Source of the DNA: Hyphomicrobium sp. D-2
Lineage (GTDB): Bacteria; Pseudomonadota; Alphaproteobacteria; Rhizobiales; Hyphomicrobiaceae
Length of the DNA: 64,000 nt
Assembly: GCF_029872155.1 (NCBI RefSeq)
Contig: NZ_JARXLA010000003.1
Span: 496,001-560,000, forward strand
Reading direction: 5' to 3'
Below are positions 70 to 47,591 of the stretch, in pieces (the stretch's first letter is position 1; every line of letters begins with the position of its first letter). The position numbers were made by a program, and so were the translations under genes. Under the pieces are notes generated by a model that saw nothing but the letters and a program-made list of their open reading frames with translations, had not been told where the DNA came from and ran no database searches.

Positions 70-98
70 GCGTGGATCCCGGCCTGCGCCGGGATGAC
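70..98. repeat. Short palindromic intergenic repeat (family R2), copy 1
   Basis: An 8-bp perfect stem (ATCCCGGC at 76-83, GCCGGGAT at 88-95) encloses a 4-base loop and is followed by GACG. The same unit, with one changed loop base and the same GTGGATCCCGGC start, recurs at 46140-46159. This looks like a REP-type palindromic element. It lies just beyond repeat R1 in the region downstream of hisS. Function is not shown by the sequence. Confidence 0.7.
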
Positions 99-182
99 GG
101 TGGGGCGACGCGCAGCGGGGGGGCACATCAATCAGCGCTGGCGGCCGGCTCTCCGAAGGAGAAGTCGCCAGCGCCCAGAAAG
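95..182 (-). repeat. Dispersed hairpin repeat (family R1), copy 1, downstream of hisS
   Basis: This stretch aligns, in inverted orientation, with 45666-45806 downstream of tatC. Shared blocks are TGACGGTGGGG, GCGCTGGCGGCCGGCT, CTCCGAAGGAGA and AGTCGCC/AGCGC..AGAAA. Read on the minus strand it holds one module: GCGACT, a short hairpin (TCTCC-TTC-GGAGA, 150-162), then AGCCGGCCGCCAGCGC. The tatC copy has two such modules. Both copies lie at gene ends, so a role in 3' processing or termination is possible but not shown. Confidence 0.65.
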
Positions 183-185
183 ACG

Positions 186-209
186 TCATCCCGACAAGGG
201 TCGGGATGA
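186..209 (-). terminator. Hairpin overlapping the hisS stop codon
   Basis: A 10-bp perfect stem (186-195 paired with 200-209, loop AAGG) contains the last hisS codons and its TGA stop. The T-rich stretch that follows on the minus strand is weak (TCTTTCT). It may end hisS transcription or protect the 3' end. The overlap means the final residues of HisS are encoded by the palindrome. Confidence 0.5.
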
Positions 210-1682
210 TGTGTGGCGCGCGATGATAGCCTGCACCTCAGCCACAAGATCGGCGGCATCCACCGTCACCTGCGCCGGGCGCTGCTCTTTCCATTCCTCG
301 TGATCCTTGATCGCCTCGGCGGCCTTGGCGCCCTCGATCAGATCCTTCAGCGTCACCTTACCCGCATCGCGTTCGTCCGAACCCTGGATCACCACGCAGG
401 GGCTGCCGCGCTTGTCGGCATATTCAAGCTGCTTGCCGAACTTCTTCGGGTTGCCGAGATACAACTCGGCGCGGATGCCGGCGGAGCGCAGCGTGTGCAC
501 CATCTTCTGGTAATCGGCGATGCGCTCCTTCTCCATCACCGTGACGATGACGGGACCATCCGCTGGCGGTGCGCTGTCGCGATTGAGAACGGCAAGGGCC
601 GCCTGCAACCGCGAGACGCCGATTGAAAAGCCCGTCGCGGGCACCTTCTGGCCGGTGAAGCGGGCGACGAGATCGTCATAACGGCCGCCGCCACCAACCG
701 AGCCGAAACGCACAGGGTTGCCCTTTTCGTCCTTCACCTCGAAGGTCAGCTCGGCCTCAAACACGGGGCCGGTGTAATATTCGAGGCCGCGGATTACCGA
801 TGGATCAATGCGGATGCGATCAACGCCATAACCCGCCGAGGCCGTCAGCTCCGCGATCTGCGCCAGCTCGGAAACGCCTTCGGTGTCGGTGATCGCGCGC
901 AGCTTGTTGAGTGTCTCGTCGTTGCTGCCCGCCAGCGCTGCGGTGAAACCGAGAATGGCCTCGATGCCGGCGTCATCCAGCTCCGCGCCCTTGGTGAAGT
1001 CGCCACTTTCATCCTTGCGGCCCTTGCCGAGCAACTCGCGCACACCTTCGGCGCCGAGACGGTCGAACTTGTCGATGGCGCGCAGCACTGTGAGCCGCTT
1101 GGCTGCGTTGTCATCACCGCCGATGCCGATTGAAGTCATCACCGCATCCAGCACCTTGCGGTTGTTGACCTTGATGACGTAATCGCCGCGCTTGATGCCG
1201 AGCGCTTCCAGCGTGTCGGCTGCCAGCATGCACATCTCCGCATCCGCCGCGACGCTGTCGGCGCCCACCGTGTCAGCGTCGAACTGCATGAACTGGCGGA
1301 AGCGGCCTGGCCCTGGCTTCTCGTTGCGGAACACATAGCCGGTGGCATAGCGGCGGAACGGCTTGGCGATGAACTGGTAGTGCTGCGCCACATAGCGGGC
1401 CAGCGGCGCGGTGAGATCGTAGCGCAGGCTCATCCACTGCTCGTCTTCGTCCTGCAGCGAGAACACGCCCTCGTTGGGGCGGTCCTGATCGGGCAGGAAT
1501 TTGCCGAGTGCGTCGGTGTATTCGAACGCAGGCGTTTCCAGCGGCTCGAAGCCATAAAGCTCATAGACGCCGCGAATTTTGCCCAGCATCGTCTGCTGCT
1601 GACGCAGCTCGGCGGCTTCGATGTCGCGCAGCCCGCGCGGCAGGCGAGGGGTGGGGCGCGCGTCTTTTTTCTGCTTGCTCAT
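186..1682 (-). CDS. hisS: Histidyl-tRNA synthetase
   Basis: Class II aminoacyl-tRNA synthetase, 498 aa, charging tRNA-His in the cytoplasm. All family landmarks are present in order: motif 1 around [11 protein letters not shown], motif 2 with [13 protein letters not shown], the histidine-specific [10 protein letters not shown] segment, GGGGRYDDL, motif 3 [11 protein letters not shown], and a C-terminal anticodon-binding domain ([10 protein letters not shown] to VTLKDL). The ATG start at 1682 gives a normal N-terminus ([16 protein letters not shown]). The extreme C-terminus (HTSSRPLSG) is encoded inside a palindromic hairpin and is probably not conserved. It stands alone; the next leftward gene begins 180 bases upstream of its start. 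Confidence 0.97.
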
Positions 1683-44432: not shown

Positions 44433-44846
44433 ATGTTCGATCTGACATCCAGCAAGCTGTTGATTCTGGCCGTTGTGGCGCTGATCGTGGTCGGCCCCAA
44501 GGATCTGCCGATCCTGTTGCGTACGATCGGCAAGTACCTGGGTTTGATGCGTCAGCAGGCGGCAGAGTTCCGGCGCCATTTCGATGAAGCCGTGCGCGAT
44601 GCGGAATTGGGCGATCTGAAGCGTGAGTTTGACAGCGTCGCCAACGAGGTGCGCGCCACCATGCAGGCTGGCTCGCGCGCCATCGATCAGGAACTGCAGT
44701 CCGTAGACAAGGTCGCGAACGGCGTCGGAACAGGTGCTTCGGTCTCCGCTGCGCCGACCGCGTCCCGCCCGGCCTTGAGTTCGGATGGTGCACAATCTTC
44801 GGCTGGCGGTGACGCCGATGGCGGAGCCGGCCGGGGGGCTGCATGA
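44433..44846 (+). CDS. tatB: Twin-arginine translocase subunit TatB
   Basis: 137 aa. Membrane helix with the TatB-type VVGPKDLPILLRTIGKYLG segment after MFDLTSSKLLILAVVAL, then an amphipathic helix (MRQQAAEFRRHFDEAVRDA). TatB forms the substrate receptor with TatC. Overlaps tatC by 4 bases (ATGA). Confidence 0.95.
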   Translation: MFDLTSSKLLILAVVALIVVGPKDLPILLRTIGKYLGLMRQQAAEFRRHFDEAVRDAELGDLKREFDSVANEVRATMQAGSRAIDQELQSVDKVANGVGTGASVSAAPTASRPALSSDGAQSSAGGDADGGAGRGAA

Positions 44847-45664
44847 CCAGCGAAGTGACACAGGCGGCTGCCGCAGCTCAGGCCCAGGCGCAACGCGCCG
44901 GGCAGGAGGAGATCGACGCTTCCAAGGCTCCGTTGATGGAGCATCTGGTCGAGCTGCGCCAGCGTCTGATCTATTCGCTGATCGGCGTCGGCATTGCATT
45001 TGCCGTCTGTTTCGCCTTCGCCAAGCAGATCTATAACCTGCTGGTGCTGCCCTATCAGTGGGCGCACGGTGGCACCGAACCGATCGAAATGATCTACACG
45101 GCGCCGCAGGAATTTCTGTTCACCCAGATGAAGCTGGCGCTGTTCGGCGCCATGTGCATCTCGTTCCCGATCATCGCCAATCAGGTCTACAAGTTCATCG
45201 CGCCGGGCCTCTACAAGAACGAGCGCCGCGCGTTCATCCCTTATCTGATTGCGACGCCGATCCTGTTCCTGCTCGGCGCGATGATCGTCTATTTCCTCGT
45301 CATGCCGATGGCGATGAGCTTCTTCCTGTCGATGCAACAGACGGGCGGTCCGGTTGAGATCCACCTGCAGGCGCGCGTATCGGAATATCTGTCGCTCATC
45401 ATGACGCTGATTATCGGTTTCGGCGTCTGCTTCCAGCTTCCGGTGGTGCTGACGCTGGCGGCGCGGGCCGGTCTGGTCACGGCCGAAACGCTGAAGAAGG
45501 GCCGCCGTTATGCCATCCTCGGCATCACCGCAGCGGCTGCGGTGCTTTCGCCGCCCGATCCGTTCAGCATGCTGGCCATGATGGTGCCGACGATGGGTCT
45601 GTACGAATTGTCAATCTGGGCGGTGGAGCGGACGCAGCGTAAGCAGGCGCAGGCCGCATCGTAG
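44843..45664 (+). CDS. tatC: Twin-arginine translocase subunit TatC
   Basis: 273 aa, six transmembrane helices. TatC motifs: PLMEHLVELRQRLIYS, TAPQEFLFTQMKLALFGAM, FIAPGLYKNERRAFIPYL and FGVCFQLPVVLTLAARAGLV. Recognises the twin-arginine signal. Last gene of the tat operon; a dispersed repeat (R1) begins immediately after its stop codon. Confidence 0.97.
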   Translation: MTSEVTQAAAAAQAQAQRAGQEEIDASKAPLMEHLVELRQRLIYSLIGVGIAFAVCFAFAKQIYNLLVLPYQWAHGGTEPIEMIYTAPQEFLFTQMKLALFGAMCISFPIIANQVYKFIAPGLYKNERRAFIPYLIATPILFLLGAMIVYFLVMPMAMSFFLSMQQTGGPVEIHLQARVSEYLSLIMTLIIGFGVCFQLPVVLTLAARAGLVTAETLKKGRRYAILGITAAAAVLSPPDPFSMLAMMVPTMGLYELSIWAVERTQRKQAQAAS

Positions 45665-45665
45665 T

Positions 45666-45806
45666 AGGCTTTTTCTGGCGCTCGGCGACTCTCCTTCGGA
45701 GAGCTGGCCGCAGTTGTTTGTTGCGCTAAGCGACTGCGCTCCGCGCAGCCGGCCGCCAGCGCGGATTGGCGCGCGCAGCCCCGCATGTCCGCCCCCCACC
45801 GTCACT
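45666..45806 (+). repeat. Dispersed hairpin repeat (family R1), copy 2, after tatC
   Basis: Two tandem modules share the frame GCGACT - hairpin - AGCYGGCCGC: the first stem is CTCTCC-TTC-GGAGAG (45689-45703), the second CTGCGC-TCC-GCGCAG (45734-45748). The second module continues CAGCGCGGATT, as in the copy next to hisS (95-182, inverted). Stem sequence differs between modules while pairing is kept. The element begins 1 base past the tatC stop. Confidence 0.65.
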
Positions 45807-46139
45807 CCGAACCACGTCAGATTCCGCATGTGCGTCTGCCCGTTGGCCTGTCTGTAGACCGATCCCATCCAGCCATCGCTGCTCGTTTTATTAAAAACTG
45901 CAACGTGCATTGACCAGACTTGCGCTTCTTGCATGCATCATGCGCGACCTGATCGCGGCTGGACCATCCTATCCGCCCCCACTATACCCTGCGTTATTCG
46001 ACGACGCGTCGAACCGCGGGTGTCTGGCCGGACGCATGACCGTACATTCTGCCCTAGTTCAACGCGCCGACATTCTGTCGTCATGCCGACGGTCGCCGGC
46101 ACTACGCAGGCCACCGCACCGCTTTTCGAGGTGTCGTGG

Positions 46140-46159
46140 ATCCCGGCCTACGCCGGGAT
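46140..46159. repeat. Short palindromic intergenic repeat (family R2), copy 2
   Basis: ATCCCGGC / GCCGGGAT stem with loop CTAC, followed by GACG, the same as at 76-95 except for one loop base. It is 16 bases left of the R3 repeat. Confidence 0.7.
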
Positions 46160-46175
46160 GACGTTTAATTGTGCG

Positions 46176-47591
<1,416 letters not shown>

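Follow-up and report, generated by a model that had tools for sequence, protein, structure and literature searches.

Which kind of element keeps its hairpins paired while the letters of their stems change? This question is raised by the gap between tatC (44843–45664, plus strand; PF00902, E 2e-70) and serS (46302–47591, plus strand; PF02403 Seryl_tRNA_N and PF00587) of Hyphomicrobium sp. D-2. The gap lies in the window, the whole stretch of 64,000 nt that was analysed. Two tandem modules of a repeat termed R1 follow tatC. They are preceded by a T-rich 5' segment (CTTTTTCTG, 45669–45677, plus strand), in which T reaches 80–92% in four adjacent columns across 26 U-class copies and which is included in the additional sequence of a filled site. 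Module 1 (45678–45711, plus strand) comprises the outer left arm, GCGACT, the inner stem CTCC/GGAG and AGCTGGCCGC, and has lost its 3' outer arm. A T-rich linker (AGTTGTTTGTT, 45712–45722, plus strand) joins it to module 2 (45723–45762, plus strand) with the inner stem GCGC/GCGC and the outer right arm CAGCGC. Both modules and their stems are as given in the initial annotation, except that the outermost CT/AG of each inner stem belongs to the invariant flanks, so that the variable part measures 4 bp. The inverted module with the first stem type that had been reported behind hisS (186–1682, minus strand; PF13393, E 5.8e-44) was found, too: It lies at 135–175 on the minus strand, separated by 9 nt from the hisS end, with the outer stem GGCGCTG paired to CAGCGC and the inner stem (T)CTCC/GGAG, which carries one extra T. 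Companion repeats termed R2, CGTC-tagged REPs as defined in PMC3733652, are located at 72–99 (minus strand), 184–210 (plus strand, with one degenerate end) and 46136–46163 (minus strand). The hisS copy folds beyond its shuffles (z -2.91); taken together, the two modules behind tatC are no more stable than shuffled sequences (z -0.81). On its own, the short motif GCYGGCCGC occurs 10 times in the window at 9.14 expected, i.e. by chance, and a general repeat search of the tatC region found no repeat.

Using a pattern in which the flanks GCGACT and AGCYGGCCGC were fixed and the stems left free, 81 exact-core copies were found genome-wide, and none with the same pattern reversed. A covariance model built from 71 of these 81 yielded at least 141 matches in the genome (E <= 0.01, 150 candidates scored). 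The further copies whose absence would have refuted the initial annotation are abundant. In a survey at E <= 0.001, the model matched 19 of 36 genomes of the family Hyphomicrobiaceae and none of 24 genomes from other families. Since at most 150 candidates in this genome and about 104 per genome in the family survey were scored, high model counts are lower bounds. By the exact pattern, R1 was detected in 45 of 103 family genomes with a patchy spread. Outside the family, 8 of 24 genomes had one to three exact matches, and the reversed counts were similar, as expected by chance. Among the 80 matched loci listed, all with a genus name are from Hyphomicrobium; the rest are from MAGs resolved to the family level or less. 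No Rfam family exceeded its gathering cut-off for R1 (best EFASI, E 0.27), and no description of R1 was recognised in the open-access literature.

The R1 unit is about 45–57 nt long and follows a fixed order: T-tract, variable outer stem of 6–7 bp, invariant GCG/CGC, internal loop, inner stem and short loop. The internal loop is lopsided, with an A opposite CCGGC. The inner stem has 6 bp with CT/AG at its base, and its loop usually comprises 3 nt. Outer and inner stem types combine freely, and some copies are hybrids with arms from two types. In all classes, a T-rich stretch lies about 8–16 nt ahead of the core. On the right side, copies of class U are often flanked by GTAG or GTAA, those of class V by TGATTGG. 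A GTAG at the 5' foot is absent from all classes, whose 5' side is T-rich; where GTAG does occur, in some copies of class U, it lies 3' of the hairpin. Likewise, the R1 alignment lacks a CGTC tag, an AT-starting stem of 8–9 bp and a CCA tail. No T-run follows directly 3' of the hairpin. As the T-tract precedes the hairpin, R1 is not a canonical terminator.

Covariation in the stems is strong. In the 27-nt cores of 71 copies (70 distinct), 93.7% of the cells are standard pairs, and 215 cells are changed on both sides compared to 84.2 +/- 5.9 in 500 shuffles. When the partner is slid by 1–3 columns, only 13–82 such cells are left, and the covariation score amounts to 0.489 versus 0.165. Counting against this, 11 pairs show any double change versus 9.5 in shuffles, and 32 of the 500 shuffles reach 11. 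Of the 16 pairs, five never vary, being prescribed by the search pattern; the stems had been left open in it, which allows a fair judgement of their pairing. A wider stem set comprised 100 copies from 64 of 105 matched loci, leaving out 16 loci of H. sulfonivorans and 25 that were not listed. In these 100 copies, outer pairs 2–6 are Watson-Crick in 89–96%, whereas the composition of the columns predicts 32–51. For inner pairs 2 and 3, this holds in 66/95 and 70/95 copies with 39 and 41 expected; the pattern used for fetching had already set inner pair 1 and a large part of pair 4. In 21 copies of this set, another inner type (C-T-C-C ... G-T-C-G and variants) is unpaired in that register. Part of the stem variety is due to exchange among subtypes instead of stepwise compensation at fixed sites, because the family is mobile.

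This mobility is indicated by sites that are filled in one sister species and empty in the other, which may be read as gain or loss. The closest relative, G001, has a 94% identical tatC followed by three R1 modules, of which the first two agree with those of D-2 in their inner stem types. In four other members of the genus with a readable tatC–serS gap (G002, G005, G006 and G007), no R1 module was seen there. Elsewhere in the D-2 genome, an R1 unit sits in the hairpin loop of an R2 where G001 has an R2 without R1; at a reciprocal site 0.7 kb away, G001 is filled and D-2 empty. Moreover, one tandem unit of 57 nt differs between the sister species (L086/L153). At these three events, two loop sites and one tandem difference, no target duplication is evident. 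Altogether, 36 of the 81 copies could be placed in synteny with the available G001 stretches, the other 45 could not. By eye, the hairpin tip has been exchanged in L052/L160 and L080/L191, where the outer arms are identical or nearly so and the new inner hairpin is still paired. An exchange is less sure for the minus-strand copy in L066/L157, which adjoins large insertions. In L009/L243 and L073/L184, again judged by eye between sister species, the cores are inverted with the outer arms in place. In L077 and L081, synteny with the sister species (L157, L158) is lost at R1 copies, which suggests recombination between them. In 12 gap-free sister pairs, for which the copy of this genome was chosen for an exact core, divergence amounts to 9.4% in inner stems, 4.2% in outer stems and 9.1% in flanks. 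The inner stems diverge about as fast as the flanks; therefore, no strong constraint on them after insertion is seen in these 12 pairs.

More distant comparisons were provided by G083 and G087, whose neighbouring proteins are 65–100% identical after a cut-off of 65% and which carry R1 at the same place in several cases. Six of ten alignments were used; four with different sites or with two modules versus one were dropped. The six same-site pairs differ at 24 pair positions: At 14, both sides have changed and are Watson-Crick in both species, 8 are unpaired in one species and 2 are wobbles in one. Nine of the 14 double changes come from two copies with outer arms of unequal length (by 1 bp), for which a shift of register may be responsible. 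The clean case of same-site compensation is L384/L380 with five double changes and no break. In five of the six pairs, both members had been selected for an exact core, and because of this choice core conservation is no evidence here, whereas pairing is. L387 and L399 each contain an R1 inside a predicted ORF, at corresponding places in the two species.

R1 copies lie mostly behind stop codons. According to a custom gene finder whose training set was the window, 43 of the 81 copies are located between convergent, 29 between tandem and 3 between divergent genes; 4 fall within a predicted ORF, and for 2 no placement was obtained. By comparison, 14% of the intergenic bases of the window are convergent, 57% tandem and 29% divergent. 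The nearest stop codon is at a median distance of 32 nt (73 copies that have one), and in 47 of these 73 it belongs to a gene on the same strand. Copies can be clustered: Eight exact ones occupy 14 kb at C1 154447–168173 of this genome, where one gene encodes a class II aldolase. In G082, G083, G084 and G087 of group g10, one homologous locus, a gene-transfer-agent cluster, is crowded with R1. Its genes, as assigned by Pfam in G082, encode terminase, portal, prohead protease, capsid, connector, tail tube and GTA-gp10. Compared to the rest of the chromosome, R1 density is about 70-fold in G087 (8/60 in 8.9 kb), 141-fold in G083 (7/29 in 8.6 kb) and 59-fold in G082 (4/34, narrower pattern) at these loci, which were picked after the clusters had been noticed. 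Some copies lie inside the predicted portal ORF. In this genome, one R1 is found between a capsid gene and a connector-like gene (L026). The g10 clusters were considered as source loci and rejected: The shared one consists of gene-transfer-agent genes and is no transposase locus.

How does R1 compare with known repeats? According to PMC3733652 and PMC6006769, GTAG REPs and REPINs served by a RAYT are, like R1, short hairpins in many copies, intergenic and at gene 3' ends, form mosaics and have subfamilies with alternative complementary stems. R1 also agrees with their siting in intergenic regions of mostly convergent or unidirectional gene pairs. In contrast to them, it has no GTAG foot at the 5' side, no cognate Y1 transposase was found, a T-tract stands in front, and both stems are interchangeable around an invariant internal loop. 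By sequence, R1 might still be identical with one of the 28 REP families of PMC3733652. The CGTC REPs, whose CGTC-...-CCA layout is that of R2, share intergenic neighbourhoods with R1 and are joined to it in mosaics, but R1 has neither their tag nor their stem and tail. The ends of IS200/IS605 elements are recognised as hairpins on the lagging-strand template (PMC6006769), a mode that may apply to R1, too; however, no tnpA was found in the genome, R1 has no internal gene, and its orientation does not switch between the arms of G087. Finally, rickettsial RPEs are palindromic repeats that also occur inside coding sequences, comparable to the R1 within a predicted ORF of G083 and G087; this likeness is by the description in PMC3733652. 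Since neither the tag nor the enzyme of the two known REP superfamilies was found for R1, it is filed as a new REP-like type and not as a member of either. R1 is probably a non-coding, REP-like mobile hairpin family of Hyphomicrobiaceae whose folded single strand would be recognised by a mobilising enzyme. This enzyme would recognise the fold via the fixed internal loop and the flanks and not the letters of the stems. Any stem change that keeps pairing would be tolerated because the fold is what counts. Copies would be tolerated behind genes, where some may last long enough to gain new paired letters.

Could R1 instead be an ordinary RAYT-driven REP family that recently lost its Y1 transposase gene? 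Its size, siting and mosaics are REP-like by PMC3733652, which also describes REPtron loss by deletion in E. coli strains, and in some units the outer stem is followed by a terminal GTAG. Yet, this GTAG is 3' of the hairpin and no 5' foot, and a PF01797 search of this genome and seven other genus members gave no match. Across the 103 family genomes, Y1 is not associated with R1: Of the 29 genomes with five or more copies, 4 have Y1, as do 10 of the 74 with fewer. At 12 Y1 loci of about 2.5–3.4 kb, the best R1 model match had an E of 0.042. The four Y1 loci read in R1-rich genomes display other or no clear repeats: Those of G029 and G011 (L120, L122) are bracketed by GGGGTCAGACCCC-type inverted repeats, a separate system, and of the two in G015, one lies among other repeats and one has no clear flanking repeat. 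This makes a recent loss of the transposase improbable. It is even harder to regard R1 as a MITE of a DDE-type insertion sequence, a very unlikely origin: The weak terminal complementarity TTTCT/AGAAA of some units would fit, but no target duplication was evident at the three events read.

A role as transcribed structure of mRNA 3' ends, with mobility being secondary, would account for the short distance to stop codons, for the same-strand stops of the majority and for the compensation in L384/L380. It would also explain why G.U-type cells exceed A.C-type cells (11 to 2) in inner stems. In the outer stems, by contrast, the wobble bias is reversed (8 versus 17). In G087, the genome of clearest polarity, and in G083, copies located between tandem genes or within ORFs are mostly antisense (22 versus 7 and 11 versus 6 sense, respectively), and both the T-tract ahead of the hairpin and the lack of an Rfam family at cut-off argue against such RNAs. 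Selection chiefly on mRNA is therefore unlikely. Of the alternatives that the initial annotation had proposed for its structural selection, REP elements or RNA 3' structures, the REP-like layout and the covariation are supported and the plain RNA 3' structure is not. Pairing might also have arisen by mutation, if template switching or tip conversion copied arm onto arm and pairing itself were not selected. Such a process would fit the exchanged tips and inverted cores at orthologous positions as well as the hybrids with arms of two types. On the other hand, arm copying would be expected neither to alter the loop, as the swaps do, nor to leave the A/CCGGC loop without homogenisation to a perfect stem (though this loop was required by the search), and the free combination of outer and inner stems does not fit either. 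Covariation by mutation only is quite improbable. The reading of R1 as a mobile hairpin recognised by its fold is preferred.

If the fold is recognised in a single strand, the latter might, more tentatively, be the template of the lagging strand at the replication fork, by analogy with IS200/IS605. Strand polarity in group g10 bears on this idea. One strand carries 57 of 60 copies in G087 (over 4.06 Mb), 36 of 38 in G101 (the 18 positions listed all being below 1.65 Mb), 38 of 43 in G084 (five contigs) and 24 of 29 in G083 (over 3.81 Mb). These genomes were chosen for their bias, and other g10 members are mixed (e.g. 7/8, 8/11, 6/10). After merging copies within 10 kb, 37 of 38 clusters in G087 and 17 of 19 in G083 are on one strand; the two polarities are not independent because the assemblies are opposite in orientation and many sites are common. 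Replication arms A and B were inferred from 20 sampled stretches per genome. Arm A has R1 on one strand in 35/36 cases in G087 and 10/10 in G083. In arm B, 22 of 24 copies in G087 keep the strand of arm A although GC skew differs between the arms, and G083 shows a weak bias (14/19). GC skew in arms A and B amounts to -0.043 and -0.004 in G087, +0.044 and -0.012 in G101, and +0.040 and -0.018 in G083. In the stretches sampled from three Hyphomicrobium chromosomes (L302–L361), skew has two levels, one strong and one near zero or weakly opposite, and is not symmetric. The GGGNAGGG motif was counted on plus/minus strands of arms A and B as 0/11 and 9/4 in G087, 12/3 and 3/7 in G101, and 5/5 and 2/7 in G083. 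These counts support a change of direction in G087 and G101 and not clearly in G083. The polarity can be read in two ways: R1 was inserted into the lagging-strand template and arm B changed its orientation afterwards, or R1 follows a global strand signal of a different kind. In the genus of D-2, there is no R1 polarity (31 sign changes among 59 neighbours), which counts against the lagging-strand idea, unless rearrangement scrambled the orientation. A parS search, carried out to fix the origin, gave one match in 421 loci and none in the polar genomes. This parS-like site of D-2 (TGTTNCACGTGNAACA, L043:2583–2598, C8 about 390.0 kb) possibly marks the origin region of its genome.

Where could a mobiliser be encoded? 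Three ORFs between inverted R1 pairs were scanned and found to encode a class II aldolase, a protein without Pfam match and a GIY-YIG nuclease. Both differences from the sister species in which R1 sits in an R2 loop flank one GIY-YIG gene, one on either side (L027:1847–2197, C2 about 592.4 kb, this genome). Its product has 116 aa, and relatives occur in 32 plasmid records. Fifteen plasmid loci (L422–L436) were picked for variety; two from Shinella are homologous and two are from Sinorhizobium, so that not all are independent. The search rule for hairpins comprised a CGTC, TGTC, CCTC or TCTC tag, an AT-starting stem of 8–9 bp and a loop of 4–5 nt. Such REP-type hairpins are present within 350 bp of the GIY-YIG gene in 11 of the 15 loci and on both sides in 9; the Novosphingobium, Sphingobium, Planktothrix and Spirosoma loci have none within this distance. 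As control, four stretches of 50 kb from four of those replicons contain one such hairpin in all, and random placement gave 0.09%. Arguing against a tight link, these hairpins are also common 0.35–1.5 kb away (14 in 23 kb, first ten plasmid loci). At four non-plasmid loci, two of them orthologous, such hairpins are nearby, three of four by the narrower R2 rule. The arrangement suggests an element REP–GIY-YIG–REP, an association by position with a putative activity. CGTC-tagged REPs apparently lack a dedicated transposase according to PMC3733652, and the small GIY-YIG nuclease is a candidate for their mobiliser. No open-access paper was found that combines GIY-YIG with extragenic palindromic. 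It is conceivable, if doubtful, that hairpin repeats of Alphaproteobacteria run on a GIY-YIG nuclease unrelated to Y1, with its gene between the cognate CGTC REPs, and that R1 exploits the breaks it makes.

The one-strand orientation of R1 over a whole chromosome, as shown for G087, is unexpected. With 81 copies, swappable stems and a fixed internal loop, R1 is a natural experiment in hairpin coevolution. It combines presence differences between sister species with the replacement of stems at the same site in more distant ones. Furthermore, R1 parts hairpin repeats from RAYT enzymes, and this raises the question of what else moves such repeats.
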